This document shows positions 10,338-58,450 of a stretch of 64,000 bases of DNA, one piece after another. Position 1 is the stretch's first letter, and each line of letters begins with the position of its first letter. The translations under genes were made by a program, and so were the position numbers. The notes beneath the pieces are model-generated. The model ran no database searches. It saw only the letters and a program-made list of their open reading frames with translations, and was not told the origin of the DNA. Source of the DNA: Achromobacter pulmonis (GTDB lineage: Bacteria; Pseudomonadota; Gammaproteobacteria; Burkholderiales; Burkholderiaceae_B); assembly GCF_902859765.1 (NCBI RefSeq), contig NZ_CADIJV010000024.1, forward strand, positions 26,242 through 90,241. The letters are read 5' to 3'.

Positions 10338-10365
10338 CCGGGGGCGGCGGTTCGTCGCCGCGCCC

Positions 10366-10389
10366 GCCGGCCGCGCCCTCGCGGCCGGC
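10366..10389 (+). terminator. Hairpin between receptor and permease genes
   Basis: Perfect 9-bp stem GCCGGCCGC (10366-10374) with GCGGCCGGC (10381-10389) and a 6-base loop, followed by only GTTT. It resembles the partial terminators or mRNA-stabilising stems often found after binding-protein genes in ABC operons. The remaining intergenic bases to 10466 are GC-rich with no gene. Confidence 0.5.
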
Positions 10390-10466
10390 CGTTTCCCGCG
10401 GCGGCCGCGCGCCGTGCCCTTCGGGGCCGGTTCCGTCCGCCGCTTTCGTTCTACGGTTTTTCCCTT

Positions 10467-12286: not shown

Positions 12287-12291
12287 TCATC

Positions 12292-42902: not shown

Positions 42903-43679
42903 TTACTCCAGGATGGCATAGCTGATGTGCGGTTCGTAGGTGAAACGCTGGATTCTCAACCGATTCAGGCCCAGCTTCTCCATCACGGCCAGGGTTTCAC
43001 CCGGCCAGGTCCGGTTGTTCAGTTCGTCGAAGACGATGACGCCGCCCTTGGGCATGCGCGGCAGGAAATGCTCCAGGCAGATCTTGGTGGGCGCGTACAG
43101 ATCCAGGTCCAGGTGCAGCAGCGACACCACGGTCTGCGGTTCGCGCGCCAGGTATTCCGGCACGCTGTGGGCGACATCGCCCTTGACCAGCTCGACCTTC
43201 TGGATGTGGCCGATGAAGCGGTTGGCATCGAACAGCGCAATGGCGCGCTGCAGATCGGCGTAGCTGTCGGCCTGGTAGCCGTGCTCGCGGCGCTCGGTGG
43301 TCTGCACGACGGCATGGCGATCCTCGTCGGCAATGCCGGTGAACCCGGAAAAGGTGTCGAAGCCGACGATGCGGCGTTGCAGGTTGACCGGCTCGAGCGT
43401 GGCGCTCAACTGGGCGAAGGTCATCAGGCCGCCGCCCCAGTTGACGCCGCATTCCATGATGTCGCCCTGCACGTGCAAGGCCATTTTGAACAGTTCCGTC
43501 AGGCACAGGAAGCGCGCCAGGCTCTGGCGCGGCACGAAACTGGCGAAGTTCTCGAGCTTTTCGACGGTGCTGCCGCCGGCCGCATCGAAGAACGCGCCCA
43601 GTTCCGCACGGTAGCCCACTTCGCGGGTGGTGCTGCGGCCATCCTGGCGGAAGCGGGAGGGATCGGTGGTGTCGTTCAT
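42903..43679 (-). CDS. TylF/MycF-like sugar O-methyltransferase
   Basis: 258 residues. The pattern GDIMECGVNWGGGLMTFAQ, VGFDTFSGFTGI and HLDLDLYAPTKICLEHFLPRMPKGGVIVFDELN is that of metal-dependent TylF-type SAM methyltransferases, which methylate hydroxyls of deoxysugars. It is the last gene of the minus-strand operon and starts in an ATGA overlap with the dioxygenase gene. Its probable job is O-methylation of the CDP-deoxyhexose or of the finished glycan; the position is not predictable. Confidence 0.85.
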   Translation of the reverse strand: MNDTTDPSRFRQDGRSTTREVGYRAELGAFFDAAGGSTVEKLENFASFVPRQSLARFLCLTELFKMALHVQGDIMECGVNWGGGLMTFAQLSATLEPVNLQRRIVGFDTFSGFTGIADEDRHAVVQTTERREHGYQADSYADLQRAIALFDANRFIGHIQKVELVKGDVAHSVPEYLAREPQTVVSLLHLDLDLYAPTKICLEHFLPRMPKGGVIVFDELNNRTWPGETLAVMEKLGLNRLRIQRFTYEPHISYAILE

Positions 43680-44476
43680 GTTGCGGTTCTCTCGGATTCC
43701 TGTTCGCGACGGCGTTGGGCATTGTGCCCGGGGTAGTCGACATAGAAGATGTTGCTGCGGTCGCCGGTGGGGTAGCGCTGGCGGCGGTATTCGGCGTCGG
43801 CCAGGTCCGTGATGCGCAGTTGCGTGGTCCAGCGGATCTGGTCGCCCAGATTGGGCGTGCTGCGGTGGAGCAGCAATTGCTTGAAGATGACCACGTCGCC
43901 GCGAGCGGCGGTGACGGTTTCGGGGGGTTCCGTCACGTCATAGTCCAGGCTCAGGTCGCGCTGCAGGAATGGCACGTAAGGCGCGATCACCTTGTCGCTG
44001 ATGCGCTTGAAGGGATATAGGCCGCGCTTGTGGCTGCCGGGAATGACCTGGATCGTGCCGGACGCCAGGCTGACGTCCTGGAACGGTATCCAGAGCGTCA
44101 CCGCGTTTTCGGAGCCCAGCAGGTAAAGCGTGTCCTGATGCCAGGCGAACAGGTGGCGGGCATCGGCCGGCTTGTCCAGGCGCATGTTGCAGCAGCCCAT
44201 CAGGCCGGGGTGGGCCAGGCCCAGTTCGCGGCACAGCCGGTCCACGGCCGCGCTGCCCGACAGGCGCGACAGCGCGGGCAGGTATTTGAGGCGGTCATAC
44301 AGCAGCGACTGCGTGGCCGCGTCCAGCGTATAGCGGCTGAAATCGTGCACATCGAATTGCGGCCCGACGATGCGCCGCCCCAGCTCGCCCAACTGGTCTT
44401 CCAGCTCGTCGAGTTCGCCGTGCTTCCAGAAGTTCTTCAGGACCAGATAGCCGTCGGCTTCGAATCTTTCGCGCAT
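43676..44476 (-). CDS. Phytanoyl-CoA dioxygenase (PhyH)-family oxygenase
   Basis: 266 residues. A non-haem Fe(II)/2-oxoglutarate enzyme: the iron ligands appear in FAWHQDTLYLLGS (HxD) and LLLHRSTPNLGDQIRW (distal His, with the 2-oxoglutarate Arg a few residues on). The N-terminus FEADGYLVLKNFW is typical of PhyH. In this operon it probably hydroxylates a sugar or an acyl/amide substituent. Coupled by overlap to the TylF-like gene downstream and 61 bases after the acyltransferase gene. Confidence 0.85.
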   Translation of the reverse strand: MRERFEADGYLVLKNFWKHGELDELEDQLGELGRRIVGPQFDVHDFSRYTLDAATQSLLYDRLKYLPALSRLSGSAAVDRLCRELGLAHPGLMGCCNMRLDKPADARHLFAWHQDTLYLLGSENAVTLWIPFQDVSLASGTIQVIPGSHKRGLYPFKRISDKVIAPYVPFLQRDLSLDYDVTEPPETVTAARGDVVIFKQLLLHRSTPNLGDQIRWTTQLRITDLADAEYRRQRYPTGDRSNIFYVDYPGHNAQRRREQESERTAT

Positions 44477-44537: not shown

Positions 44538-45038
44538 TCAGCCGCCGGTCTCTTCGCGCCAGCCCAGCACTTTCATGGGGTTGCCGCCCTGGATCGAGAA
44601 GGCGGCGATTTCGCCGCGCACGATGCTGCCAGCGGCGATGACGCAGCCTTCGCGCAGAATGGCGCCGTCCAGCAGCACGCAGTTGGCGCCGATCCAGACG
44701 TCGTCTTCGATGAGGATGCCGCCCTTGCTGGGGCGGAACCCCTGTTGCCGGATCGGCAGGTCGCGCCGGCGGAACTCGTGGTTGGCGGGCGCGAAGGTGC
44801 AATTGGCGGCGACCGCCACGCGCGCGCCCATGCGGATGCCGTTGCCGGTATAGAGCACGCAGCCGGAATTGATGACGCAATCAGGGCCGATGATGACGTC
44901 GCCCGCGCCGCCGGCAGGCTTGATCTTGACGAAGGCGTCCACCACGGCGCCCGGGCCGATCACGATCCGGGTGCCGCGGGTGGAATCCTCGATGTCGGCC
45001 AGCGACGAGACGCGGGCGCTCGGGGCGATCTCGATCAT
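44538..45038 (-). CDS. Left-handed beta-helix acyltransferase (hexapeptide family)
   Basis: 166 residues made almost entirely of hexapeptide repeats (IVIGPGAVVDAFVKI; VIIGPDCVINSGCVL; DDVWIGANCVLLDGAILREGCVIAAGSIV) with the loop NHEFRRRDLPIRQQGFRPSKGGI containing the acetyl-transfer His. This is the maltose/chloramphenicol O-acetyltransferase (LbetaH) fold. It likely O-acetylates a sugar in the pathway. It lies 19 bases downstream of the CmcI-like gene on the minus strand. Confidence 0.88.
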   Translation of the reverse strand: MIEIAPSARVSSLADIEDSTRGTRIVIGPGAVVDAFVKIKPAGGAGDVIIGPDCVINSGCVLYTGNGIRMGARVAVAANCTFAPANHEFRRRDLPIRQQGFRPSKGGILIEDDVWIGANCVLLDGAILREGCVIAAGSIVRGEIAAFSIQGGNPMKVLGWREETGG

Positions 45039-45057: not shown

Positions 45058-45813
45058 TCAGGCCTTGCGGCGCAGGAAGCCGTCGGGCGCCGAGGTCACC
45101 AGCAAGCGGTCTTCGACCGAGCGGTCGATCTCGAATTCCGGATGGCTCTTGATCCATTCCCAGACTGCGGTCTTGGGGTTGTTGCCCTTGCCCCAGTGGC
45201 GGCCCGGCCACTCGTAGTCGGCCGGCATGTCTTCGACGAAGGTGTCGAACACCACGCAGTAGCTGCCCACGCTGACCAGGTCGGCATAGGCGTTCAGCTC
45301 GGCCAGCACGTGGTCGTGCGTGTGGTTCGAGTCCAGGCACACCATGATGTTCTTCTTACCCTGGGCGTGCGCGCGTACCTGGGCGATGGTGGCCGGGTCG
45401 ATGCTGGAACCCTCGATCAGGTGGATGCGGCTGGCCAGCGGATGGGCCTCGATGGCGCGGCGGTTGTGTTCGCGGATCTCGATGTCCACGCCCACCACCT
45501 CGCCGGCGCCCAGCAGTTGCAGCATCGAGGCCGACAGCATCAGCGAACCGCCATGGGCGATGCCGGTCTCGATGATCAGGTCAGGCTTGACCGCCCAGAT
45601 CAGTTCCTGCATGGCCATGGCGTCCATGGGCAGCTGGATCAGCGGCCGACCGGCCCACGAGAAGTTGTTCATGTACTTGCGTTCCAGCGCCATCTGGCGC
45701 CAGGCGATCGACAGCTCGCGGAATTCCTGGTCGGTCGCGAATGCGCCGATACGGGCGGCTTTTTCCTGGCGGTATTCGGGATGCGCGTCGGGCGTGGTTT
45801 CAAGGTAGGACAT
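45058..45813 (-). CDS. CmcI/cephalosporin-hydroxylase-family methyltransferase-like protein
   Basis: 251 residues. Matches the CmcI family, named after a cephamycin gene but structurally a SAM methyltransferase: NNFSWAGRPLIQLPMDAMAMQELIWAVKPDLIIETGIAHGGSLMLSASML, VVGVDIEIREHNRRAI, VCLDSNHTHDHVLAEL and YCVVFDTFVEDMP. Family members occur in many O-antigen and rhamnolipid-like clusters and probably O-methylate sugars. Its ATG directly abuts the stop of the reductase gene. Confidence 0.87.
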   Translation of the reverse strand: MSYLETTPDAHPEYRQEKAARIGAFATDQEFRELSIAWRQMALERKYMNNFSWAGRPLIQLPMDAMAMQELIWAVKPDLIIETGIAHGGSLMLSASMLQLLGAGEVVGVDIEIREHNRRAIEAHPLASRIHLIEGSSIDPATIAQVRAHAQGKKNIMVCLDSNHTHDHVLAELNAYADLVSVGSYCVVFDTFVEDMPADYEWPGRHWGKGNNPKTAVWEWIKSHPEFEIDRSVEDRLLVTSAPDGFLRRKA

Positions 45814-46638
45814 TCAGATTCCTTTGCGTTGGCGGAACTGCGCCAGAAAATGCGGGAAATAATCGGAGAATGCGCGTGGCGTGAGGCCAAAACGGGTCTG
45901 GAAGCGCTGCGTATCGATATCGGCAAAGGCCCATTGCTGAGCGTCGGCGGCTTCGGTGACGACGTAGCCAAGTTCCGAGCGCAGGCATTCGGCGATGGCG
46001 CGGTTCTCGACGCCATGGCCCTGGGCCAGGTTGAAGATGCCGGTGGCGTCAGATCGGGCCAGCGCCAGGATCTGGGCGACGGCGTCGTCGATATACAGGT
46101 AGTCCTTGCGGGAGGACAGCGTGGTTTTCAGGGCAATGCGGCCGCTGCTGGCGCCTTCCTCCAGCAGCTGATCGATGAAGCTGTCGGCGGAATCGCGCAG
46201 CCCCACGACGTTGGACAGGCGGGCCACCCGCGCCAGCGGATGTCCGCCATGCAGACACAGCGACTCGCCCATCAGCTTGGACAGGTTGTAGAGGTCGCCA
46301 GGCGCGTTCGGATTGACCGTCAGCGCCGCCTGCTCTCGGGTGTCGTGCGAGCCGGCGTAAACCCGGGTGCTGGACAGGTAGGTCAGGCTGTCGAAATTGC
46401 CGGCGGCGATCAGGCGCCGCAACAGGCAGACATGCGCCTCCACGGTATCGAGCGGCCGGCTGCGGAAGTCCGAGGTCAGGCCGATGGCGTAGATCACGTG
46501 GCCCAGCGGGCGGTCGAACAAGCCGGGCTCGTCGCGCGCCGGCCCGGCGCAGTCCGCGCCGTCGGCGCGCAGGCGCGCCAGCAGTTGGCGGCCGATGAAG
46601 CCCGTCGCCCCGAGGACCGTGACCGTTGGGGTGTTCAT
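45814..46638 (-). CDS. NAD(P)-dependent epimerase/dehydratase-family sugar reductase
   Basis: 274 residues of the extended SDR class: the Rossmann motif VLGATGFIGRQLL at the start, STRVYAGS, the catalytic YNLSK, and KDYLYIDDAVAQILALA. It is shorter than a 4,6-dehydratase, and with the C-methyltransferase next to it is best read as the 4-ketoreductase that finishes the CDP-deoxyhexose. An epimerase role remains possible. It overlaps the C-methyltransferase stop by four bases. Confidence 0.85.
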   Translation of the reverse strand: MNTPTVTVLGATGFIGRQLLARLRADGADCAGPARDEPGLFDRPLGHVIYAIGLTSDFRSRPLDTVEAHVCLLRRLIAAGNFDSLTYLSSTRVYAGSHDTREQAALTVNPNAPGDLYNLSKLMGESLCLHGGHPLARVARLSNVVGLRDSADSFIDQLLEEGASSGRIALKTTLSSRKDYLYIDDAVAQILALARSDATGIFNLAQGHGVENRAIAECLRSELGYVVTEAADAQQWAFADIDTQRFQTRFGLTPRAFSDYFPHFLAQFRQRKGI

Positions 46639-47879
46639 GCGTCCTGGCCGCCGTCGATCGCCAGGGCCGGCACCGCGGTGACCAGCTTGGCATGCCAGCC
46701 CTCGCGGGCATAGGCCAGTTGCTGCGACACTTCGGCCTTCAGGTTCCAGGGCAGCACCACGATGTACTCGGGCCGGTCCTGGCGCAGCACGTCTTCGGCG
46801 ACGATGGGAATGTGGCTGCCCGGCAGGTGCTTGCCCTGTTTGGCCGGATTCAGGTCCACCACATAGGGCAGCAGGTCGGGCCGCACGCCAGCGAAGTTCA
46901 GCAGGGTATTGCCCTTGGCTGCCGCGCCGTACGCGGCCACGCGCTTGCCATTGCGGCGCAACTCCAGCAGCAGCGCCAGCAGGTCGTTCTTGATGCGCTC
47001 GGCCTGTTCCTGGAAACGGGAATAGAACGCCGCGCCGGTCATGCCGGCCTGCCGCTCTTCGTCGAGCGTGCGCGTCACCGCCGCCGTGGCCTCGTGATTG
47101 CCGGTATCGAGCCGCTGCGCATACACGCGCAGGCTGCCGCCGTGCGTGGGCAGGGGCTCGACATCGAAAACGCGCAGGCCATTGGCCTGGAAGATGCGCG
47201 AGACGGCGGTCAGCGACAGATAGGAATAGTGTTCGTGGTAGGCGGTGTCGAACTGGTTTTCGCGCACCATGCGCAGCAGGTGCGGAAATTCGAAAGTGGC
47301 CACGCCCTGCGGCTTGAGCAGCGCTGCGAAACCGGAGACGAAATCATTGATGTCCGGCACGTGCGCCAGCACATTGTTGGCGGCGATCAGGTCGGCGGCG
47401 CGGCCGGTGCTGGCCAGTTCGTCGCCCAGCGCCACGCCGAAGAAGCGTTGCACGATGTCGATGCCGCGCTCGCGCGCGGCCTGGGCCGTGCTGGCGGTGG
47501 GTTCCACGCCATAGCAGGGAATGCCGGCGGCCTTGACGTATTGCAGCAGATAGCCGTCATTGGCGGCGATCTCGCACACCATGCTCTGGGGGCCGAGCCC
47601 GAAGCGGGCAACCATGGCGTCGACGTAGCGGCGCGAATGCGCCAGCCATGACGAAGAGAACGAGCTGAAGTAGGCGTAATCGTCGGTGAACAGCGCTTCG
47701 CGGCCCGCGTGGTCTTCGGTCTGGACCAGCCAGCACGATTCGCAGACCAGCAGGCGCAGCGGAAACCAGGTCTCGGGCCCGCGCAGCGCGTCGGCGGTCA
47801 GATAGGCATTGGACGGCGGGGCATGGCCCAGGTCGAGGAACGGCAGGCGCAGGTCGGCCTGGCAGTGGCGGCACTTCAC
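46635..47879 (-). CDS. Sugar C-methyltransferase (TylC3/NovU type)
   Basis: 414 residues from GTG 47879, which overlaps the stop of rfbC (GTGA). Three parts are visible: an N-terminal zinc-binding region (CRHC at 3-6 and LVCESCWLVQ near 52-55), a SAM domain (MVCEIAANDGYLLQYVKA; AANNVLAHVPDINDFVSGF), and a C-terminal domain (VAAYGAAAKGNTLLNFAG). The motif EHYSYLSLTAV contains the conserved His/Tyr of the active site. Enzymes of this class add a methyl group to carbon next to the keto group of NDP-4-keto-6-deoxysugars (C3 in TylC3, C5 in NovU), giving branched sugars. Confidence 0.92.
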   Translation of the reverse strand: MKCRHCQADLRLPFLDLGHAPPSNAYLTADALRGPETWFPLRLLVCESCWLVQTEDHAGREALFTDDYAYFSSFSSSWLAHSRRYVDAMVARFGLGPQSMVCEIAANDGYLLQYVKAAGIPCYGVEPTASTAQAARERGIDIVQRFFGVALGDELASTGRAADLIAANNVLAHVPDINDFVSGFAALLKPQGVATFEFPHLLRMVRENQFDTAYHEHYSYLSLTAVSRIFQANGLRVFDVEPLPTHGGSLRVYAQRLDTGNHEATAAVTRTLDEERQAGMTGAAFYSRFQEQAERIKNDLLALLLELRRNGKRVAAYGAAAKGNTLLNFAGVRPDLLPYVVDLNPAKQGKHLPGSHIPIVAEDVLRQDRPEYIVVLPWNLKAEVSQQLAYAREGWHAKLVTAVPALAIDGGQDA

Positions 47880-48433
47880 GGCGCGACTCCGGGGAAAGCG
47901 GCGTCCAGGCGCGGATGCTGCAGGTCGCGCTCGGATACCAGGGTAGGGGGCAAGGGCCAGGCAATGCCCAGGCGGGCATCCTGGAAATGCAGGCCTGCCT
48001 CGGCCTGCGGGGCGTAGGCGGCGGAATGGCAATACAGCATTTGCACGTCGTCGCACAGGGTCTGGAAGCCATGCGCGAAGCCCTGCGGGATCAGCAGGGC
48101 GCAGCCGTTGTCGGCGGACAGCCGCTCGGCGTGCCAACGCAGGAAAGTGGGCGAGCCGCGACGCAGATCCACCGCGACATCCCAGACTTCGCCGCGGATG
48201 CAACTGACCAGCTTCATCTCGGCATGGGGAGGCAATTGGTAGTGCATGCCGCGCACCGTGCCGCGTGTGGCGGTATGGGTGTGGTTGACCTGGGCGATGG
48301 CGCCTTCCCAACCCGCGGCGCGCAGGGCCTCGGCGTCGAACAGGCGCGCCAGGAATCCGCGCGCGTCACCGCGCGGGCGCCGTTGCACCCGTTTCAGCCC
48401 GGCCAGAGGGGTGTCGTGGATCTCAAGGCTCAT
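47876..48433 (-). CDS. rfbC: dTDP-4-dehydrorhamnose 3,5-epimerase-family protein
   Basis: 185 residues from ATG 48433, which overlaps the rfbG stop. RmlC-type cupin: GFLARLFD, QVNHTHTATRGTVRGMHYQ (catalytic His in RGMHYQ), VAVDLRRGSPTFLRW, IPQGFAHGFQTL with catalytic Asp/Tyr region DVQMLYCHSAAYAP. In classical pathways it acts on dTDP-4-keto-6-deoxyglucose; here the neighbours make the CDP-linked version, so the nucleotide is probably CDP. It would set the configuration at C3 and/or C5 before or after C-methylation. Confidence 0.9.
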   Translation of the reverse strand: MSLEIHDTPLAGLKRVQRRPRGDARGFLARLFDAEALRAAGWEGAIAQVNHTHTATRGTVRGMHYQLPPHAEMKLVSCIRGEVWDVAVDLRRGSPTFLRWHAERLSADNGCALLIPQGFAHGFQTLCDDVQMLYCHSAAYAPQAEAGLHFQDARLGIAWPLPPTLVSERDLQHPRLDAAFPGVAP

Positions 48434-49500
48434 TGCGGTTCCGAGTAGCGGTCGATATCGGCATGGCACAGCGTCCGCGCATCCTCGCCCGCATCGAAAC
48501 GGCGGTACCAATCCATGCTGCGGGCGACCGCCATGGCCAATGGCCAGCGCGGCGTCGCGCCGAGCACCGCGCGCGTCTTGGCGGTGTCCAGCATCAGCAG
48601 GCCAGCCTCGTGCGGCCCTTCGGGCTGCGCGGCGTAGGCGACGCGGCCACGGCCATAGGCCGCCTGCGCCAGGTCGATCACCGTGCGCACCGGCGCCGCC
48701 TCGGCGGCATCCGGTCCGAAGTTGTAGGCATCCGCCAGGGCGGGGTCGTGCCATAGCGCCTGCGCCAGCGCCAGGTAGCCGGCCAGCGGTTCCAGCACGT
48801 GCTGCCATGGCCGCACCGATTGCGGCCGCCGCACCTGCAGTTCGCCTTCGTCGCGCCAGGCGCGTACGGCGTCAGGCAACAGGCGGTCGACCGACCAGTC
48901 GCCGCCGCCGATCACATTGCCGGCGCGGGCGCTGGCGACCGCCAGGCCTTGTTCTTTCAGGAACGCGTCGCGATACGAGGCAATGACCAGTTCACTGGCC
49001 GCCTTGCTGGCGCTGTAGGGGTCGTGCCCGCCGAGCGCGTCGTTTTCGCGGTACGGATAAGGCCATTCATTGTTGCGATAGACCTTGTCGGTCGTGACCA
49101 TGACCGCCACCCGGGTGTCCGGCGCCGACCGCAGGGCATCGAGCAGGTGCGCGGTGCCCATGATGTTGGTGGCGAAGGTGGCGACCGGCTCGGCGTAGCT
49201 GGGGCGCACCAGGGCCTGCGCGGCCAGGTGCAGCACGATTTCAGGCCGCGCCGCCAGGACGAGCTGGCGCAATGCCGCTGCGTCACGGATATCGCAATGG
49301 CGGCCTTCGACCAGCTCGTCGATGCGGGCCGCCTGGTGGAGGGCCGGCGTCGTGTCCGCCGGCAACGCGATGCCCGTGACATGAGCGCCCAGCCGGTGCA
49401 GCCATAGCGCCAGCCAGCCGCCCTTGAAGCCCGTGTGGCCGGTCAACAGAACGCGCTTGTGGCGCCAGAAGGCGGGGGATGGCAGGAAGGACCCGGTCAT
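48430..49500 (-). CDS. rfbG: CDP-glucose 4,6-dehydratase
   Basis: 356 residues from ATG 49500. Extended SDR: VLLTGHTGFKGGWLALWLHRLGAHVTG is the diagnostic N-terminus of CDP-glucose 4,6-dehydratases, followed by HLAAQALVRPSY, TTDKVYRN, the catalytic YSASKAASEL and GNVIGGGDWSVDRLLPD. It converts CDP-glucose to CDP-4-keto-6-deoxyglucose. It heads the eight-gene minus-strand operon. The matching cytidylyltransferase gene (rfbF) is about 1 kb upstream, with a plus-strand methyltransferase gene in between. No RfbH-type 3-dehydrase is present, so the sugar keeps its 3-hydroxyl. Confidence 0.95.
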   Translation of the reverse strand: MTGSFLPSPAFWRHKRVLLTGHTGFKGGWLALWLHRLGAHVTGIALPADTTPALHQAARIDELVEGRHCDIRDAAALRQLVLAARPEIVLHLAAQALVRPSYAEPVATFATNIMGTAHLLDALRSAPDTRVAVMVTTDKVYRNNEWPYPYRENDALGGHDPYSASKAASELVIASYRDAFLKEQGLAVASARAGNVIGGGDWSVDRLLPDAVRAWRDEGELQVRRPQSVRPWQHVLEPLAGYLALAQALWHDPALADAYNFGPDAAEAAPVRTVIDLAQAAYGRGRVAYAAQPEGPHEAGLLMLDTAKTRAVLGATPRWPLAMAVARSMDWYRRFDAGEDARTLCHADIDRYSEPQ

Positions 49501-49765: not shown

Positions 49766-50515
49766 ATGAGCAAGAATCATCTGAAAACGGTGTTTTTCGG
49801 ACTGCAGAACCCCACAATGTTCTACGAAGGGCTCCAGACCGCCCTCGATGCAATCGAGGGCATCGCAGGCGCCTACGCGGGCGACAATCTCTTTACCTAT
49901 CATCGCAATCTGGGCTTTCTGGACGACCCGGCCCTGATGAAGGCGTTCGGCGACCACGCGGGCACCGAGATCGAGCAGGCCGTGCTGTGGCGGATTTCGG
50001 TGGTCCTTTGGGGCGTGCGCCAGGGCCTGCGCCTGGAGGGCGATTTCGTCGAGTGTGCTTGTTACAAGGGCACGACGGCGCGGATCGTTTGCGATGCGGT
50101 CGAGTTTTCATCCCACCCGGACCGCCACTACTATCTGTATGACCTGTTCGATCACGATCCCTCCCAGCCGCATCACGCCATGCCGGAGCACGGCAAGGAG
50201 CTGTATCTCCAGGTCAGGCAGCGGTTCTCCGATCTGCCCAACGTCACCGTCACACAAGGCCAGGTGCCGCAGGTGCTGCAGGATGTCGCGCCCGCCAAGA
50301 TCGCCTTCATGCATCTCGACCTGAACAACGCGGATGCGGAAATCGGCGCGCTGGAAACACTGTTCGATCGCATGGTGCCGGGGGCGGTGCTGATCCTGGA
50401 TGACTATGGCTGGCTGGCGTATCGCGCCCAGAAAGAGGCAGAGGACCCGTGGTTTGTGCGACGCGGCTATCGGGTATTGGAATTACCCACCGGGCAGGGC
50501 CTGCTGATCAAATAG
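49766..50515 (+). CDS. TylF/MycF-like methyltransferase, second copy
   Basis: 249 residues. LEGDFVECACYKGTTARIVCDAVEF, YLYDLFDH and MHLDLNNADAEIGALETLFDRMVPGAVLILDDYGW follow the TylF/MycF pattern, with the Asp-Asp metal site near the end. It is not a recent duplicate of the operon copy because the two differ widely along their length. It is the only plus-strand gene in the island, inserted between rfbG and rfbF, and runs convergently into rfbF with 11 bases between stops. It probably O-methylates the same sugar or glycan. No strong ribosome-binding site is visible. Confidence 0.82.
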   Translation: MSKNHLKTVFFGLQNPTMFYEGLQTALDAIEGIAGAYAGDNLFTYHRNLGFLDDPALMKAFGDHAGTEIEQAVLWRISVVLWGVRQGLRLEGDFVECACYKGTTARIVCDAVEFSSHPDRHYYLYDLFDHDPSQPHHAMPEHGKELYLQVRQRFSDLPNVTVTQGQVPQVLQDVAPAKIAFMHLDLNNADAEIGALETLFDRMVPGAVLILDDYGWLAYRAQKEAEDPWFVRRGYRVLELPTGQGLLIK

Positions 50516-50526
50516 CGCGATCGGCT

Positions 50527-51297
50527 TCACCAGACCTTCCAGGGCGCCTGTCCCGCGTTCCACAGCGATTCGAGCAGGTTCTTTTCTCGCAGCGTGTCCA
50601 TCGGCTGCCAGAAACCCAGGTGTTCGTAGGCGTGCAGGTGCCCTTCGCGGCTGAGGGTTTCGAGCGGTTCGGCTTCCCAGCTGGTGTCGTCTCCGGCGAT
50701 CAGGGGCAGCACGCTGGGCGACAGCACGAAAAAGCCGCCGTTGATCAGTCCGCCGTCGCCGCGCGGTTTCTCGGTGAAACCGGTGACGCGGTCGCCTTCT
50801 CGGCGCAGCGCGCCATAACGGCCGGGCGGCTGCACCGCGGTGACCGTGGCCTTGCCGCCATGGCGGCGGTGGAACGCGATCAGCGCGCTGATGTCGATAT
50901 CGGCCACCCCGTCGCCGTACGTGAAGCAGAACGCTTCCTCTTCCTTGACGTAATCGGCCACGCGCTTGAGACGGCCCCCGGTCATGGTGTTCTCGCCGGT
51001 ATCCACCAGCGTCACGCGCCACGGCTCGGCCTTGCGCTGATGGACTTCCATGCGGTTGTCGGCCATGTCGAAGGTGACGTCGGACATGTGCAGGAAGTAG
51101 TTGGCGAAGTACTCCTTGATCATGTAGCCCTTGTACCCGCAGCAGATCACGAAGTCGTTCACGCCATGGGCGGAGTAGGTCTTCATGATGTGCCACAGGA
51201 TGGGCCGGCCGCCGATTTCGATCATCGGCTTGGGCCGGGTATGCGTTTCTTCGGAAATACGGGTGCCCAGGCCACCGGCCAGGATGATTGCTTTCAT
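50527..51297 (-). CDS. rfbF: Glucose-1-phosphate cytidylyltransferase
   Basis: 256 residues from ATG 51297 (MKAIILAGGLGTRISEETHTRPKPMIEIGG), which overlaps the stop of the large fusion gene by four bases. Nucleotidyl-transferase signature G-G-x-G-T-R with the KPM Lys, FTYGDGVADIDI with the metal Asp, and GGFFVLSP. It makes CDP-glucose from CTP and glucose-1-phosphate and so supplies RfbG. Its coupling to the fusion gene, rather than to rfbG, ties sugar synthesis to the putative flagellin glycosyltransferase. Confidence 0.95.
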   Translation of the reverse strand: MKAIILAGGLGTRISEETHTRPKPMIEIGGRPILWHIMKTYSAHGVNDFVICCGYKGYMIKEYFANYFLHMSDVTFDMADNRMEVHQRKAEPWRVTLVDTGENTMTGGRLKRVADYVKEEEAFCFTYGDGVADIDISALIAFHRRHGGKATVTAVQPPGRYGALRREGDRVTGFTEKPRGDGGLINGGFFVLSPSVLPLIAGDDTSWEAEPLETLSREGHLHAYEHLGFWQPMDTLREKNLLESLWNAGQAPWKVW

Positions 51298-54200
51298 GCT
51301 TGGTTCTCGCACCAATTCGTGAACATGCCGCGCAGGGCGGCTTCGAACTTGCGGGCGAACGCGGGTTCGTCCATCAAGGGGCTGGCGCGCATTTCATCGC
51401 GCAGCGTGTTGCGTACTGCCTGCAGGGCGGGGAGATCGCTGGCCAGTTCCACCACCTTGCGGATGTAGGCGTCTTCGTCATCGGCCACCCATTCGGGACG
51501 ACCGATGCCGTGCAGAACGGAAGCGCCAATACGGCCGACGCTGGGACGATCGGCCAGCGTTACATAAGGCACGCCCATGTACAGCGTTTCGACCAGCGTC
51601 ACGCCGGAATTGTGCGGGAAGCAGTCCAACCCGATGTCCATGCCGCGCAGCACGTCCCAGGGGGGGCTGGTGCAACCGACTTCGAGCCGCTGGCGTTCGA
51701 TGCCGTGCGCCTCGAAGCGGCGGATCAGCTGTTCGCGCATGGGCCCGTCGCGGTAGCTGGTGCTGTTTACCACCAGATGCGCCTGCGGCAGGCGCCGGAG
51801 GATCTCGGACCACACCTTGACGGTGCGGTCGTTCATGCGGATGGCGCGGGTCAGCGTTCCCAGCGTCACGTAGCCGTTGGTCAGCGCCGGCAGCGGGCCG
51901 GGGTCGCCCATGGTGGTGCCCGGCCGGTAGATGAAATTGCTTTGTGCCAGGCGCCAGGGCTTTTCCGAGAACAGGTGCTCATAGCCCGCCGGCAGCATCA
52001 CGTCGTCGGTCATGATGTAGTCGATGGCCGACAGCCCGGTGGTGTAGCCAAAGCCCAGCCACGTCAGCGATACCGGCGCGGGTTTGCGCGCGAACGCGCC
52101 CAGCCGGTTGCCCGCGGTGTGGCCGGCGACGTCGATCAGGATGTCGATGCCGTCGGCGCGGATGCGTTCGGCCAGCTGCGCATCGCTCATCGACGCCGTG
52201 GGGACCCAGTGGTCGAAGTAGGCCTTCAGCCTCGGCGTGGTGGCGTCTTCGGCGACCAGTTCCGCGTAGGCGGTCAGTTCGAAGCGCTCGCGATCATGGT
52301 GCGCGAACACCGGCTCGATGAAGTAATTGCCGGAGTGCTGGCGGAAGTCGGGCGACACGTAGCCGATCCTGAGCCTGCGCTGCGGATCACGGTTGTTGTT
52401 GTGCGGCTTCCAGGTCGAACGCAGCGGCAGGCAGAGGTCGGTGTCGTAATCGCGATAGGCCTGGAACACTTCTTCGGCCGTGCGGTCGTCCGAATAGTTC
52501 ATGGCGAACAGCAGGTTGTTGCGCGCCACCGCAGCGGTCGGGTAGTGGGCCAGGGTCCTGCGGGTCATTGCCTCGGCCTGAGTCACCTCGCCCGAGTCGA
52601 TGTAGATCTTGCTCAGGTTGATGAGCGCCTTGCGGTGGGTCGGATCGAGCGTCAGCGCCGTCAGGTTGCAGGCTTCGGCTTCCTTGTAGCGGCGCTCGGC
52701 GGCCAGCGCATCGGCCAGGGCGGAATGGGTTTCGGGGCTGCGCGGGTCCAGCTCGATCGCGCGGCGGGCCACGCCGATCGCCTCGGCGGTGCGTCCGAGC
52801 TGGGTCAGGACGGCGGCGAGCACGATGTGGCTCTGGGCATCGGCCGGCGCCAGATTCATCATGGTGAGCGTGGGCTGCAGCGCCTGGGGGCTGCGAAAGG
52901 TGCTGAACAGGGCGATGCTCAGCGCTTCCCAGGCGTCCCAGAAACGCGGCGCCAGCTTGGTCAGCTGCCGAGCGACCGGCTCGGCCTCGAGGTAGGCCTT
53001 GCGCATCATCAGTTCGTGCATGCGCTTGACCTGAGCCGTGAGGCCGGCAGGCGGGACGGACTGGTGTCCGCTGGCCTGCAGCACACGCGAATTCAGGCTC
53101 AGGCAGGCCAGCGCGCTGGCATACATGCCGGCCAGCGGCATGTAGTCCTCTCCGGCTGCCTCGAGCGTGCGGCGCAGCAGGTCGGCCCAGGCCTTGGCGC
53201 TACCCTGGGCCAGCGCATAGCGCTTGACCAGCGAGAGGGTTTCCGCCACGTCCGCGGGCAGGGGCGGCGGGGCATCGCCGGCCGCGGCGCTGGGCAGGCG
53301 GCCCGCCGCCAGGTTGGCCAGGATGGCCGCCTGCTGCGCAGGCGGCACGTAATTGACGGTTTCGTGCCACAGGTTGAAGCGCGGTAGCGCGGGTTCGTCG
53401 TCCGCCGCCGCGGTGCTCAGGAAGGGCAGCAGGCGCAAGCTGTCGTCGCCCTCGGTTTCGTAGGGGCCGGGGTCGAGGCAATAGTGCACCAGATCATGCT
53501 CGAGCAAGGTTTGCAGCGTGCGTTGCAGGATCTTGGCGGCCGCGTCATTGTCGATCTGGTTGCGATAGAGCAGGACGGCCAGCAGGGTGCTGTAGGGGAG
53601 CGAGCGGGGCCAGGCATGCGCCAGCGTATCCACCACGGTCACCGTGTCGGGGTCGTGCGTGACCAGGGCGCGGCCAAGGTGGTTCACATAGGTCGCTCCC
53701 TCTTCCTGGCCATTGGCGGCCAGCCGGATCGGCCCGGCGGCGAAGCGCAGGTCATGCAGCCGGGCCAGGTCCGGGCGCTGGACTTCACCCGCCCGTTCCT
53801 CCCGCAGCCAAAGGCATTGGCGGAACGCGCGACCCGTGGCGAAATCGAGATACTGCTGGCGCACGGTGGCGGGTTGTCCCATTGCCACCAGGCTATGGTT
53901 CAGGGAAACGCCTTGGCCGAACGAGAGCGGCAATTCACTCAGGGGCTGCACGTCGCCCAGGTAGGCCAGGCCGGCCTGGCCGGCCGCGCCGGCCAATTCC
54001 ACGAAATAGCTGGGATTGCAGGCCAGCGGATCGGCGCCGCTGGCGTTGTCTAGGGCCCGGGCGAACTGATCCGCCGCGGCCGCCAGGGACGCGGCATGCG
54101 GATTGGCCGCCGCCATGCCGTCCTTGAACAGGGACAGCGCCGCCCGGGCGCTCTGGCGCAATTCGTCGCCGTTCTGGGCGGCGTGACCGTGCAGCAGGAT

Positions 54201-54692
54201 GGCATCGCGCACCACTTCCAGCGATTTGGCGCCGGGATAGACATGGCAATCCAGATACAGGATGCCGCGCGGGCTCAGCAATTGCCCGCAAGCCTGCAGC
54301 AACGCCTGCTGGGCGGGCGCGGGCAAGTAGCTGTACAGGCCGGTGACGATGACGTAGTCGAACAGGCCCAGCTGGGTGCCGATGTCGGCCGCCTCGCCCA
54401 CATACAGCGTGAGGTTGGCCGCGCCCAGCCGCCGGGCGGTCTCGGTGCCTTGTGCCACCAGGGCCTCGGACCCGTCGAGACCGACCGCCTGCGCCTGCGG
54501 GTGGGCGAGCGCGAAGGGCAGCAGCCCGGCGCCGTCGCCACAGCCGATGGCCAGCACCCGGGCGCTGTCCAGAGGGACTGTCTCGACCCCATACAGGTGG
54601 GCGGTGGCGCGCAGCCGTTCGGGGGAATGGCTGGGGGCGAGGGGGCCGGGATCAGCGGCGGTCTGTCGTTGGGTGTGGGCCGGATAAGACAT
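51294..54692 (-). CDS. Fusion protein: PKMT-like methyltransferase + TPR + OGT/SPINDLY-type glycosyltransferase
   Basis: 1132 residues from ATG 54692 (GTG 54755 also possible; neither has a clear ribosome-binding site). Residues about 25-200: SAM fold with VLAIGCGDGAGLLPFALAHP (motif I 47-55) and YLDCHVYPGAK, related to the stand-alone methyltransferase across fliC. About 200-500: the methyltransferase regulatory and winged-helix regions of that family (VRQQYLDFATGRAFRQCLWL; FNLWHETVNYVPP). About 550-730: TPRs (AIGVARRAIELDPRSPETHSALADAL). About 770-1132: GT41/OGT catalytic region (LRIGYVSPDFRQHSGNYF; DILIDVAGHTAGNRLGAFARKPAP; VTLVETLYMGVPYVTLADRPSVGRIG). OGT enzymes put a sugar on Ser/Thr. 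Next to fliC it is the likely flagellin glycosyltransferase, with a possible second activity in methylation. Confidence 0.85.
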   Translation of the reverse strand: MSYPAHTQRQTAADPGPLAPSHSPERLRATAHLYGVETVPLDSARVLAIGCGDGAGLLPFALAHPQAQAVGLDGSEALVAQGTETARRLGAANLTLYVGEAADIGTQLGLFDYVIVTGLYSYLPAPAQQALLQACGQLLSPRGILYLDCHVYPGAKSLEVVRDAILLHGHAAQNGDELRQSARAALSLFKDGMAAANPHAASLAAAADQFARALDNASGADPLACNPSYFVELAGAAGQAGLAYLGDVQPLSELPLSFGQGVSLNHSLVAMGQPATVRQQYLDFATGRAFRQCLWLREERAGEVQRPDLARLHDLRFAAGPIRLAANGQEEGATYVNHLGRALVTHDPDTVTVVDTLAHAWPRSLPYSTLLAVLLYRNQIDNDAAAKILQRTLQTLLEHDLVHYCLDPGPYETEGDDSLRLLPFLSTAAADDEPALPRFNLWHETVNYVPPAQQAAILANLAAGRLPSAAAGDAPPPLPADVAETLSLVKRYALAQGSAKAWADLLRRTLEAAGEDYMPLAGMYASALACLSLNSRVLQASGHQSVPPAGLTAQVKRMHELMMRKAYLEAEPVARQLTKLAPRFWDAWEALSIALFSTFRSPQALQPTLTMMNLAPADAQSHIVLAAVLTQLGRTAEAIGVARRAIELDPRSPETHSALADALAAERRYKEAEACNLTALTLDPTHRKALINLSKIYIDSGEVTQAEAMTRRTLAHYPTAAVARNNLLFAMNYSDDRTAEEVFQAYRDYDTDLCLPLRSTWKPHNNNRDPQRRLRIGYVSPDFRQHSGNYFIEPVFAHHDRERFELTAYAELVAEDATTPRLKAYFDHWVPTASMSDAQLAERIRADGIDILIDVAGHTAGNRLGAFARKPAPVSLTWLGFGYTTGLSAIDYIMTDDVMLPAGYEHLFSEKPWRLAQSNFIYRPGTTMGDPGPLPALTNGYVTLGTLTRAIRMNDRTVKVWSEILRRLPQAHLVVNSTSYRDGPMREQLIRRFEAHGIERQRLEVGCTSPPWDVLRGMDIGLDCFPHNSGVTLVETLYMGVPYVTLADRPSVGRIGASVLHGIGRPEWVADDEDAYIRKVVELASDLPALQAVRNTLRDEMRASPLMDEPAFARKFEAALRGMFTNWCENQA

Positions 54693-54829
54693 GTGGCGTG
54701 CGAAGGAGGGGCGGGCCCCGGGGAATGATTGCGGTAATTCTAGGGAGGCGGGCACCGGCTCATTCAGCGAATCAGCATGCCAATTCGCCGCCAGTTTGGA
54801 TGAAACCGCGCGAAGCCGGCGGGAATGAA

Positions 54830-54921
54830 AAAACCCGCCAGGAGGCGGGTTTTGGATGGCAGGCCACGGTGCGAAGGGCCGTGGCCGGCTGGCCAGGCGG
54901 GGAAACCAGGGCTTCCCCGCC
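54830..54921 (-). terminator. fliC terminator and flanking hairpins
   Basis: On the minus strand, stem AAAACCCGCC/GGCGGGTTTT (54830-54839 with 54844-54853, AGGA/TCCT loop) ends in six T, a strong intrinsic terminator about 90 bases after the flagellin stop. Between it and fliC a further stem GGCGGGGAA/TTCCCCGCC (54896-54904 with 54913-54921) and a GGCCACGG/CCGTGGCC stem could protect the mRNA 3' end. Confidence 0.88.
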
Positions 54922-54943: not shown

Positions 54944-56623
54944 TTAACGCAGCAGCGACAGCACGGTTTGCGGCACTTGGTTGGCTTGCGCCAGAACCGA
55001 GGTGCCAGCCTGTTGCAGGATCTGGGCCTTCGACATGTTCGACACTTCCGTGGCGTAGTCGGCGTCCTGGATACGCGAACGGGCGTTGGACAGGTTGTTG
55101 ACCACGTTGTTCAGGTTGGCGATGGTCGATTCCAGACGGTTCTGCACGGCACCCAGTTCACCGGTCAGCTTGTCCAGCTTGGTGAAGGCGGCGTCCAGCG
55201 TCTTCAGCGGATCGGTCGTCAGCGTACCCTTGCTGGTGGTGTCCGTGGTCAGCTTGCCCGAGGCGCTGACGTAGGCGGTGGCGCCCACTTGGGGAGCGTA
55301 GTCGCCCGTGCCCGTGCCGCTCTTGACCGTGGCCTTGCCCGTGTTGGGGTCAACCGTGTACACGGTGTCGAAGGTCTTGGTGGTCGTGAACGAGCCCTTG
55401 TCGTCGACGTACGTGTCGGTCGAGGTGCCGTTGACCAGCGTAACCGTGGCGCTGGTGATGCCCTGGCCCAGTTGGATCGACGAGTTGGCGGCGGCCTTGA
55501 CGTTGGCCAGCAGCGCATCGGAGGCGATGGTGTTGGTGAACGTCAGTTGGTTGGCGGTGCCCGTGTTGGAGTACGTCTTGCCACCGATGGCGACCGACGA
55601 CGAACCGGCGGCGCCGGTGTTGTTCGAAGCAGCCGTCATCACGGAGTCGAGCGTGGCAGCGGTGGCGCTGGCGCTGTTGGTGGTCAGGTTGCCGGCGGCA
55701 TCCAGGTAGGCGGCTTGACCGCCGACGGTGACCTTGCCCGTGGCGTCGACTTCGAACGAGGTCGAAGCGGAGCCGTTGCTGTGGGTGTAGGTGGCGGTCG
55801 TGGTGCCGGTGGCCGGACGCAGCGAGTTGGCCAGGGCGGTCACGGCAGCGGCGTTCGACGCCGACTTGTCGGTGAACGTGAAGTTCTTGTTGCTGGCGTC
55901 GTAGGTGTAGACGGTGGCGCCGGCGCCGGTGCCCACGGTGACCTTGTTGCCGCCTTCGAGCTTGCCGAACACTTGGTCAGCGGTGGCGCTGGCGTGGTTC
56001 GTGGTCACGGTCCAGTCGTTGCCAACAGAGGTGCCGCCGGCAGCTTGCAGGTCGGACACGGTGGCCGTGCGGTTCTGGGTCACGCCCGAGCCGTTGACGT
56101 TGAAGCCGTCCAGACCCAGGGTCTTGACGCTGATTTCGGTCAGGTTCAGGGTGATGGTTTCGCCGTCGTTGGCGCCGACTTGCAGCGTCAGGGGCTTGGC
56201 GTTGGAGGACAGGACCTTCACGCCGTTGAAGTCGGTTTGTTGCGAGATGCGGTCGATGTCCGACAGACGTTGGTTGATTTCGTCTTGCATCGAGTTCAGC
56301 TGCTCTTGCGAGTAGCTGCCGTTACCGGCTTGCACCGACAGTTCGCGAACGCGCTGCAGGTGGGTGTTGATTTCGGAGGCGGCGCCTTCCGTCGTCTGGG
56401 CCAGCGAGATGCCGTCGTTGGCGTTACGGGCGGCTTGGGTCAGGCCCTTGACGTTCGCGGTGAAGCGGTTGGCAATGGCCATACCGGCGGCGTCATCCTT
56501 GGCGCTGTTGATGCGCAGGCCGGACGACAGACGCTCGATGGCGGTACCCAGGGCGGATTGCGACTTGTTCAGGTTGTTCTGAGCAACCAGCGACAAGTAG
56601 TTGGTGTTGATAACTGCAGCCAT
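54944..56623 (-). CDS. fliC: Flagellin
   Basis: 559 residues from ATG 56623, with GGGAG seven bases upstream. The conserved N-terminus (MAAVINTNYLSLVAQNNLNK, then SSGLRINSAKDDAAGMAIANRF) and C-terminus (RIQDADYATEVSNMSKAQILQQAGTSVLAQANQVPQTVLSLLR) form the D0/D1 core of the flagellar filament and the type III export signal. The central about 330 residues are very rich in Thr, Ser, Ala and Gly with scattered Lys, ideal as an O-glycosylation and Lys-methylation surface. The gene has a sigma-28 promoter and its own terminator, and sits between two PKMT-like genes. Confidence 0.97.
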   Translation of the reverse strand: MAAVINTNYLSLVAQNNLNKSQSALGTAIERLSSGLRINSAKDDAAGMAIANRFTANVKGLTQAARNANDGISLAQTTEGAASEINTHLQRVRELSVQAGNGSYSQEQLNSMQDEINQRLSDIDRISQQTDFNGVKVLSSNAKPLTLQVGANDGETITLNLTEISVKTLGLDGFNVNGSGVTQNRTATVSDLQAAGGTSVGNDWTVTTNHASATADQVFGKLEGGNKVTVGTGAGATVYTYDASNKNFTFTDKSASNAAAVTALANSLRPATGTTTATYTHSNGSASTSFEVDATGKVTVGGQAAYLDAAGNLTTNSASATAATLDSVMTAASNNTGAAGSSSVAIGGKTYSNTGTANQLTFTNTIASDALLANVKAAANSSIQLGQGITSATVTLVNGTSTDTYVDDKGSFTTTKTFDTVYTVDPNTGKATVKSGTGTGDYAPQVGATAYVSASGKLTTDTTSKGTLTTDPLKTLDAAFTKLDKLTGELGAVQNRLESTIANLNNVVNNLSNARSRIQDADYATEVSNMSKAQILQQAGTSVLAQANQVPQTVLSLLR

Positions 56624-56845: not shown

Positions 56846-58450
56846 TCAATGCAGTAACAGGCCCGCGTGGCGCAGGCCGGCGAGCAGGCTGGTGACGATA
56901 TCCTGGGCTACCGGGTCGAGGTTGCGCGCACCTTTATAGGACTTGCCGTCAGGATGCGGGAAGCGCCCGGCCGTGAGGGCATCGCGGGCCAGCGTGCGCA
57001 GATCGCTGATGCTGCGCTGGCCATCGATCTGGCTCAGGAGGTAGCCGTGCAGCGGGGCGGTCGGTGGCGTGACGGGGTGATGCCAAGCGTTGTGCATGCC
57101 GACCTGGCACCCTATTTTTGTTACTTGTTGTAGCAACTGGACGGCGCCCGGCAGCAATTGCGGCCGCGACTGCGGCGTGTCATAAGGCGCGGGCTCGCGC
57201 CGGTAGTGAAGGGCGCCCGCCTGTAGCAGCGTGACCAGATTTCCGATCAGCGCGTCGGAGAGGGCGCCGGCCTCTTGGTCGCCCGCCACGTGGCGCACGC
57301 TGTCGCACAGCGCATCGAAGCTGTGCGATTGCGGCCAGGTCCGCGCCAACCCCTCCATCAGGGCGGCCATCGCCGGGTCCTGGGTGGTGATGCTGGTATT
57401 GGCCGCGGTGCGGAACTGGCGCTGGCCCGCGGGCGCGCCCGCCGGCGCCGGAAGAGGCGTCAGGTCGGCGGCAAAGTGCATGGTGGTGAAGGCATCGCCC
57501 TGCGGCTGCTCCAGGATCTCGCCGGCCCGTTCGGCATGCACCAGCAGGCTCTTGCGGAACTGGCGGCCCACCGCGAAGTCGAGGTATTGCTCGCGCATTT
57601 CCCGGTTGGCGTTGACCGACAAGCCGTTCAGGCCCAGCGCCACGGTGCCGCCGTAAGTCGAGGGAAACGTCTGCTGGGGTTCGGCGTCCGTGACATAGGC
57701 CAGCCCGGCTTGCTGCGCGGCGGCGGCAAATTCCAGGAAATAGCAGGGCGTGTTGATGGCTTCCAGGTACTCGTGCAGCAGGTAGTGGTCGGTCTGGCCG
57801 CGCAGTTTCTGCGCCGCTGGCTGCAGTGCCGTGCGTAGCGGATTGTTATGCCACAGGCCGCTCTCGATCAGCGTCAGCATGTCCTTGGCGCGGGCGATTT
57901 TCTCCTGCGGCGTCTGGGCGCCGAAGCTGTTGAGTATCATCGCGTCGCGGATCACATCCGCCGCCTTCCAGCCCGGGTAGGTGTTGTAGCTGACGTAGGC
58001 GATGCCTTGCGGCGCCAGGTTCTCGCGGCAGACGCGCAGGATGGCGTCGCGCACGTCCGGCGGCACCCAGCTGAACACGCCGTGGCAAATGATGTAGTCG
58101 AACGTGCCGAACGCGGCGGTGATATCCGTCAGACTCATGGCGCGCAGATCCAGATTGCGCGCGCCGACCGCTTCGGCAACCTGCCGGCCGGCGTTGATCT
58201 GCTCGGGCGACAGGTCGATACCCACGACCTGGGCTCCCGGGTGGGCCAGCGCGAACGGCAACAGATTGCCTCCCGCCGCGCAGCCCAGTTCCAATACCCG
58301 CGCCTGCTCCAGCGCGGGCGCCTCGAGCCGGTAAAGGTGCGCGACCGCGCGCAGATGGCCGGGCGAGGTGTAGGAAAACGGCAGGGAGATATACGGGGTT
58401 TCGTCGTAGGCGTCGGAAATGGCCTGCGTCAGGAGGTCGGGTGCGCTCAT
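56846..58450 (-). CDS. PKMT-like (protein-lysine methyltransferase type) SAM methyltransferase with regulatory domain
   Basis: 534 residues. The N-terminal signature YDETPYISLPFSYTSPGHLRAVAHLY, motif I VLELGCAAGGNLLPFALAHP (residues about 52-71), CHGVFSWVP and YVSYNTYPGWK are hallmarks of the rickettsial PKMT1/PKMT2 family, which methylates lysines of outer-membrane protein B. After it come the methyltransferase regulatory domain (about 215-300) and a winged-helix C-terminal half. It lies just upstream of fliC in the same direction and downstream of fliA. Methylation of flagellin lysines is the obvious hypothesis. It is not related to classical FliB. Family is sure; substrate is inference. 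Confidence 0.82.
   Translation of the reverse strand: MSAPDLLTQAISDAYDETPYISLPFSYTSPGHLRAVAHLYRLEAPALEQARVLELGCAAGGNLLPFALAHPGAQVVGIDLSPEQINAGRQVAEAVGARNLDLRAMSLTDITAAFGTFDYIICHGVFSWVPPDVRDAILRVCRENLAPQGIAYVSYNTYPGWKAADVIRDAMILNSFGAQTPQEKIARAKDMLTLIESGLWHNNPLRTALQPAAQKLRGQTDHYLLHEYLEAINTPCYFLEFAAAAQQAGLAYVTDAEPQQTFPSTYGGTVALGLNGLSVNANREMREQYLDFAVGRQFRKSLLVHAERAGEILEQPQGDAFTTMHFAADLTPLPAPAGAPAGQRQFRTAANTSITTQDPAMAALMEGLARTWPQSHSFDALCDSVRHVAGDQEAGALSDALIGNLVTLLQAGALHYRREPAPYDTPQSRPQLLPGAVQLLQQVTKIGCQVGMHNAWHHPVTPPTAPLHGYLLSQIDGQRSISDLRTLARDALTAGRFPHPDGKSYKGARNLDPVAQDIVTSLLAGLRHAGLLLH

Follow-up and report, generated by a model that had tools for sequence, protein, structure and literature searches.

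Proteins that join a methyltransferase to a glycosyltransferase of family GT41 are already known from flagellin glycosylation islands. The excerpts of De Maayer and Cowan (2016, PMC4875605) on which we rely describe them in Enterobacteriaceae (194 strains, 15 island types), suggest GlcNAc derivatives as the donor and place genes for CDP-4-keto-6-deoxyglucose in one island type (4 strains). Caulobacter FlmG is a modular flagellin glycosyltransferase whose tetratricopeptide repeat (TPR) half binds flagellin and whose glycosyltransferase half is inactive without it; its donor is pseudaminic acid, and the excerpted report describes no methyltransferase part (PMC7591256). Solved structures exist for Arabidopsis SPINDLY (7y4i, 8dti) and for the O-linked N-acetylglucosamine transferase (OGT) of Thermobaculum terrenum (TtOGT; 5djs), with the catalytic lysines K665 and K341, and for Rickettsia PKMT1 and PKMT2 (5dnk, 5doo), protein lysine methyltransferases (PKMTs) that modify OmpB. 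Here we describe a gene that combines all of these parts, at positions 51294..54692 of a 64,000-nucleotide stretch of Achromobacter pulmonis (the window; contig NZ_CADIJV010000024.1), on the minus strand like all window features below unless noted. Its 1132-residue product consists of a PKMT fold, TPRs and a GT41 domain, and lies beside the flagellin gene fliC.

Set beside the enterobacterial island proteins by their description, the product belongs to the same architecture class (AdoMet_MTase plus SPINDLY/GT41 next to flagellin) and differs from them in that the Achromobacter GT41 domain carries an arginine at the catalytic lysine position and accompanies an operon for a CDP-sugar. The likeness to FlmG, likewise by description, is that of a modular enzyme with a TPR half, which in FlmG binds flagellin and sets a precedent for TPR-directed glycosylation of flagellin. 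SPINDLY and TtOGT lack the N-terminal PKMT-type half and have lysine where the fusion has Arg952, whereas the comparison with PKMT1 and PKMT2 reveals loss of the DE.PY segment, the motif I acid and the Trp, Asn and His positions in the fusion. Our preferred reading, held with moderate confidence, is that of a cytoplasmic enzyme that O-glycosylates flagellin, with a docking half derived from a methyltransferase and a CDP-sugar donor supplied by the operon, the donor and the acceptor both being predicted from gene context. The N-terminal half (PKMT-derived fold and TPRs) would capture unexported FliC in the cytoplasm; the downstream operon (rfbF, rfbG, an rfbC-like gene, a C-methyltransferase and further tailoring enzymes) would both synthesise the sugar and convert it to its CDP-activated form; and the GT41 domain would transfer this branched 6-deoxyhexose to Ser/Thr residues of the FliC outer domain. 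Full-text searches of one library brought up the enterobacterial study as the relevant paper, and none of the papers listed dealt with this Achromobacter gene, a CDP-using GT41 enzyme, a Lys-to-Arg subfamily or the mosaic described below.

The fusion gene and its flagellin neighbour

The frame opens with an ATG at 54692 and closes with a TGA whose last base is 51294. A longer alternative would begin at a GTG at 54755; the equivalent of the ATG serves as start in the nearest relatives (L004-L006). A gap of 251 bases separates the end of fliC (54944..56623, 559 residues) from the downstream start of the fusion, and its TGA overlaps the ATG of rfbF by four bases. The Pfam models that score above their curated cut-offs are Methyltransf_25 (50.2 bits against 27), PF10119 MethyTransf_Reg (38.6 against 25.5), several TPR models (TPR_2 at 42.1 against 27, other TPR models falling below theirs) and PF13844 Glyco_transf_41 (150.1 against 25), the last of which places the protein in GT41. 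A sequence search of the PDB matched Rickettsia PKMT1 (5dnk, E 1e-29) and SPINDLY (7y4i, E 2.4e-94). In an AlphaFold2 model with a mean pLDDT (predicted local distance difference test score) of 85.7, residues 14-496 align to PKMT1, the winged-helix part included, and residues 545-1131 align to SPINDLY; the TPR and GT-B fold of OGT/SPINDLY is present. The protein thus divides into a methyltransferase core with MethyTransf_Reg (residues 14-345; 53658..54653), the winged-helix part of the PKMT fold (residues 346-496; 53205..53657, from the model aligned to 5dnk), a TPR superhelix (about residues 546-740; 52473..53057, from Pfam TPR, the model helices and the SPINDLY alignment) and a GT41 catalytic domain of the SPINDLY/OGT type (residues 770-1132; 51297..52385). 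These results bear out an earlier note made from the window's letters, which had described one frame of about 1130 residues some 250 bases from fliC and overlapping rfbF, and had named PF13844, PF10119 and PKMT profiles as the searches to run; they also support its idea of an OGT/SPINDLY-type transferase, which most likely acts on flagellin. The intact PKMT-like neighbour, the Lys-to-Arg replacement, the link to the CDP operon, the mosaic and the prior enterobacterial report go beyond that note.

Full-length fusions were found in 19 of 43 Achromobacter genomes, the window's own counted, which ruled out an artefact in which two genes had been joined by error. The remaining genomes gave a stand-alone PKMT-like match only (13 genomes, E <=1e-30), a GT41 match only (1) or no match (10). 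Twelve more full-length fusions (L186-L197) came from 250 genomes of the family outside Achromobacter, and a single one (L116/L155), of another order of the same class and with lysine at the catalytic position, from 398 genomes of the phylum. Fusions may have been missed, since only two candidates per genome were scored in the searches of phylum and family. L038 and L245, of the same length, are probably one contig counted twice. The stretch around the fusion, at most 20 kb long, contains a flagellin gene in 31 of 32 cases, L173 being the exception. It lies within about 1.3 kb of the fusion in the window and 13 other Achromobacter genomes, and at 6-7 kb in L169-L172. In FliC, the proposed acceptor, Ser and Thr make up 29% of the outer part, residues 141-480, as compared with 16-17% of the ends.

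Arginine at the catalytic lysine position and the CDP-sugar genes

The codon for Arg952 (51837..51839) aligns with residue 341 of TtOGT (Met in 5djs, a K341M variant) and with K665 of Arabidopsis SPINDLY, the position of the catalytic lysine. Arginine occupies this position in all 19 Achromobacter fusions; the histidine of the GYVSxDFxxH motif, whose role we assume, is kept as H786 and is invariant in the same 19. Among 166 GT41 domain matches at the compared loci, 88 have Arg, 70 have Lys and 8 have no letter at the position. The 32 methyltransferase-TPR-GT41 fusions divide into 24 of the Arg class and 8 of the Lys class, and rfbF together with rfbG is in the stretch of every Arg-class fusion (24/24) as opposed to none of the Lys class (0/8). 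Within Achromobacter, the two genes accompany the fusion in 19 of 19 genomes and were found in none of 13 stretches (14.7-20 kb) from genomes that have the stand-alone methyltransferase only.

We extended the count to GT41 loci in general, calling rfbF when the score against the RfbF of the window exceeded 150 bits. In the best 79 loci of 546 relatives, rfbF accompanies 37 of 58 Arg, 0 of 19 Lys and 0 of 2 mixed loci. The corresponding values are 2/4 Arg and 1/36 Lys in a phylum sample (40 of 96 matching genomes, from the top of the list), 8/8 Arg and 4/12 Lys in a family sample (20 places from 90 matching genomes), and 0/1 Arg, 0/29 Lys and 0/2 with another letter in a class sample drawn by Pfam model (32 of 52 matching genomes, the window's own excluded). 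Pooled over the four samples, one of which is the best 79 of 546, rfbF accompanies 47 of 71 loci with Arg and 5 of 96 with Lys. The complete split among the fusions points to a CDP-6-deoxy-sugar as the donor. The GT41 enzymes known to us use UDP- or GDP-sugars. A CDP-sugar branch marked by Lys-to-Arg, if true, would widen OGT-like chemistry and would offer a clue to the flagellin glycan that can be read from a genome.

The operon itself is consistent with such a donor. The rfbF product (50527..51297) is a glucose-1-phosphate cytidylyltransferase (TIGR02623, 474.9 bits against a cut-off of 300.25), and rfbG (48430..49497) encodes a CDP-glucose 4,6-dehydratase (TIGR02622, 460.4 against 278.45). 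RfbG contains the TDK...YxxxK fingerprint, which is given as the mark of CDP-glucose dehydratases in the part of a review that we used (PMC8987622), and the motif is found in all 19 Achromobacter rfbG frames; the CDP-glucose identity of rfbF and rfbG was established for the window operon, plus one operon of type B (see below) and one of type C. Next come an rfbC-like sugar 3,5-epimerase (47876..48436; PF00908, TIGR01221), a sugar C-methyltransferase (46635..47888; PF08421, PF08484) and a member of the NAD-dependent epimerase/dehydratase family (45814..46638). The likely product, judged from the enzyme families, is a CDP-activated branched 6-deoxyhexose. No glycosyltransferase family was matched (E <=1e-5) among ten neighbouring proteins scanned, in frames down to 42903, and the fusion is therefore the sole transferase recognised in the operon.

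The phylogeny sets the scale of this association. Near-copies (L005, L006, L186) were dropped from the methyltransferase and GT41 row sets, with L186 represented by L038, which left 22 of 24 Arg-class fusions for comparison; the GT41 tree was built from 80 of 128 rows (16 of the 22 Arg-class and 8 Lys-class fusions, with single proteins drawn at random, 28 from 53 with Arg and 28 from 45 with Lys). All 44 Arg rows (28 single, 16 fusions) fall in one part of this tree with a support of 96, together with one Lys row, L117, and the eight Lys-class fusions are placed elsewhere with a support of 98. A single origin of the compared fusions by their glycosyltransferase part was rejected, the one-clade constraint giving a p-AU (approximately unbiased test) of 6.4e-5. 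A tree of the methyltransferase part unites the Arg-class fusions with the Lys-class L194 and L195 (support 98); from the two groupings it follows that methyltransferase modules related to one another are joined to two GT41 subfamilies.

Several points weigh against our reading of the GT41 half. Replacement of the catalytic lysine by arginine could mean low or no activity, and a glycosyltransferase unlinked to the operon could use the CDP-sugar. Among the best 79 loci of 546, 21 of 58 Arg loci are without rfbF, some of their stretches being short, and the five Lys loci that have rfbF in the four samples are L236 and L258-L261, the last four of which have long GT41 frames and a flagellin gene in the same stretch. 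In addition, the GT41 tree shows only about two changes between Arg and Lys, so that few independent events underlie the link to the CDP genes. Chance was set aside as its cause on Fisher p values, which were computed on related rows, and an independent-pairs test has 1-2 pairs, putting significance out of reach. Because the rows are related and the changes so few, the CDP link belongs to the subfamily, and a causal role of the arginine itself is put forward as a hypothesis.

One possible alternative is that the GT41 domain uses a common donor, UDP-GlcNAc or GDP-fucose, and that a different enzyme transfers the CDP-sugar or that this sugar is destined for another glycan. The closest solved relatives, a GDP-fucose enzyme and O-GlcNAc transferases, would lead one to expect this, and L258 (positions 9059-13795, plus strand, another genus of the family) illustrates how GT41 can coexist with a second transferase, since a 1578-residue TPR-GT41(Lys)-GT2 protein lies there between fliC and an rfbF-rfbG operon. 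However, the ten scanned neighbours of the fusion include no other transferase family, the CDP genes accompany the Arg-class and not the Lys-class fusions, and the glycosyltransferase half and the operon track each other, as described below. We think that this alternative is quite unlikely. Our wider proposal is that the Arg-class GT41 domains are an unrecognised CDP-deoxysugar subfamily of OGT/SPINDLY enzymes, and that in the flagellin fusions recombination near the TPR/GT41 boundary swaps them together with the operon, so that strains would change the flagellin glycan and keep a docking half that is a retired lysine methyltransferase; we offer it tentatively, at a little short of an even chance.

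Two loci deserve separate mention. L271 has Arg at the catalytic lysine position, is without a TLTRAIRIN-like motif and has no CDP genes in its 14-kb stretch; it is perhaps a second, independent Lys-to-Arg change. The L258 protein occupies the same genomic slot as the fusion with a different architecture, and its added GT2 domain could use the CDP-sugar.

The methyltransferase half and its intact neighbour

On the other side of fliC lies a stand-alone PKMT-like methyltransferase of 534 residues (56846..58450; PF10119, 88.3 bits; PKMT1, E 2.5e-74), which keeps the YDETPY, ELGCAAGGN, CHGVFSWVP and YNTYPGWK motifs. The fusion has PF10119, a class-I methyltransferase domain and the PKMT fold but not the set of PKMT-diagnostic positions (E54, H123, W128, N156 and W161) that is invariant in stand-alone proteins. 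Its motif I reads AIGCGDGAG where PKMT1 and the stand-alone neighbour have ELGCAAGGN, and the DE.PY segment is absent; the earlier note had called this part divergent, with GCGDGAG in place of GCAAGGN and a degenerate PYxxxPF segment. The window fusion retains 53 of the 86 columns in which 17 stand-alone sequences are all alike. Trp161, Trp128 and Asn156 (P0002 numbering), also invariant in the 17, are absent from all 22 Arg-class fusions compared, each of which has alanine in place of Trp161; H123 is lost in 19 of the 22 and E54, the acidic residue of motif I, in 18. A domain in decay was ruled out as the explanation, given that omega for the methyltransferase core is 0.07-0.19 in eight pairwise comparisons, several with a synonymous divergence (dS) of about 1 or more, which indicates purifying selection. 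That the fold is conserved while the PKMT residues are gone suggests that its role is non-enzymatic or has changed.

The earlier note had proposed that one protein may both methylate and glycosylate flagellin, and in that form the hypothesis would have the methyltransferase half act on flagellin lysines and the GT41 half on Ser/Thr of the same flagellin. Lysine methylation and glycosylation do occur together on Shewanella flagellin (PMC3765264). The PKMT fold is complete in the model, and its core is under the strong purifying selection noted above. Against a mere docking role, Asp79, which we take to be the ribose position, is kept in 18 of the 22 Arg-class fusions, and the class-I fold may still bind S-adenosylmethionine; the FD pair is kept in all 22 and the following Tyr in 21. 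The Lys-class L191-L193 have motifs nearer to PKMT, including a near-canonical ELxCGxGGN and YPGWK, and activity may therefore differ between the two classes. Nevertheless, the loss of the motif I acid and of W128, W161, N156 and H123 in most or all Arg-class fusions, and the presence of an intact PKMT-like paralogue adjoining fliC, lead us to regard the bifunctional enzyme as unlikely. Of the dual function, glycosylation is supported, and methylation less so, the intact gene being the better candidate for a methyltransferase on sequence grounds. The note's fallback, in which the methyltransferase part has become a binding or regulatory module, fits better with the residues lost in 22 of 22 fusions and with the purifying selection.

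Alternatively, the methyltransferase half might methylate the attached sugar and not the protein. Methyltransferases abound in the glycan pathway, and Shewanella is known to bear methylated glycans on its flagellin (PMC3765264). On the other hand, C-methyltransferase, CmcI/RMNT-type and TylF-type enzymes are already present in the neighbourhood, and the N-terminal half does not covary with the operon genes (rho -0.23 with rfbG). We consider sugar methylation by this half highly improbable. Under the docking hypothesis that we prefer, the methyltransferase fold would persist for docking or for structure, lysine methylation having probably been lost, and the intact neighbour would be the likelier enzyme for any methylation of flagellin lysines. 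Annotation of such proteins as methyltransferases thus becomes a testable question of methyl transfer or docking.

A mosaic gene and further observations

Four Achromobacter fusions (L009, L010, L012 and L016; type B) adjoin a different operon, whose rfbG is 49-51% identical instead of 78-87%; the type B stretches contain neither an epimerase-family gene nor a CmcI-type gene of full length. Sliding comparison of the L009 and window proteins gave 73-87% identity in five windows between residues 43 and 342 (P0001) and 50-73% from residue 763 on, as opposed to 35-66% before residue 763 and 73-81% after it for L009 and L016. L010 behaves like L009 toward the window protein; L012 goes with L008 before residue 763 and is nearer to L016 in most windows after it. 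In trees of 14 of the 19 Achromobacter fusions, the four form one clade by the glycosyltransferase half (support 100) and by rfbG (support 100), a clade that the N-terminal half rejects (p-AU 4.5e-7). In the model, the break lies close to where the TPRs give way to the GT41 domain.

Distance matrices for 11 of the 19 fusions, from which the near-copies L004-L006 and the other operons of L017-L021 were omitted, gave the same division. FliC distances correlate with those of the methyltransferase part (rho 0.81, Mantel p 0.0004), the winged-helix part (0.78) and the TPRs (0.48), as compared with 0.17 (p 0.11) for the glycosyltransferase part. The latter correlates with rfbF (0.74, p 0.001), rfbG (0.74, p 0.003), rfbC (0.76) and the C-methyltransferase (0.71), and the methyltransferase part correlates with neither rfbG (the value given above) nor the glycosyltransferase part (0.02). 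The N-terminal half tracks fliC and the glycosyltransferase half tracks the sugar operon. Linkage alone, with fliC next to the one half and the operon next to the other, would give this distance pattern, and the control gene fliA, which correlates with nothing (rho -0.17 to 0.08), hardly varies and is a poor control; both points temper our interpretation. The persistence of intact chimeras with a break near a domain junction is unexplained by linkage by itself. We conclude that the GT41 end appears to have been swapped between strains along with the neighbouring sugar-making genes. Replacement of the GT41 domain together with the operon would alter the glycan and leave the flagellin-side half in place, and the mosaic suggests that the modules for acceptor recognition and for donor choice evolve separably, with exchange near the domain boundary.

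Farther downstream, the operon continues with genes for a CmcI/rhamnosyl O-methyltransferase family protein (45058..45813; PF04989), a hexapeptide acyltransferase-like protein (44538..45038), a PhyH family dioxygenase-like protein (43676..44476) and a TylF-type methyltransferase (42903..43679). A TylF-like methyltransferase gene (49766-50515, plus strand) lies in reverse orientation between rfbF and rfbG; it is present in 4 of 18 relatives' stretches and is perhaps a recent accessory insertion. A promoter and terminator scan of the gap between fliC and the fusion returned no promoter-like site and two terminator-like sites, both on the plus strand within fliC, and shuffled sequences yield more. 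Inspection by eye showed a G+C-rich hairpin with T residues after it in this gap at 54825-54865 (minus strand), missing from the output of the terminator scan; it may separate the fliC and fusion transcripts.

Tandem GT41 domains were encountered in both classes. Three Arg-class domains per protein occur in L041, L059, L071, L081 and L089, with rfbF in the stretch of each of these loci except L081. One open frame of L108 (44-16302, plus strand) contains seven Lys-class GT41 domains in a row and a partial match, and one of L095 (8-18673, plus strand), from Desulfonema magnum, contains eight in a row, again with a partial match.

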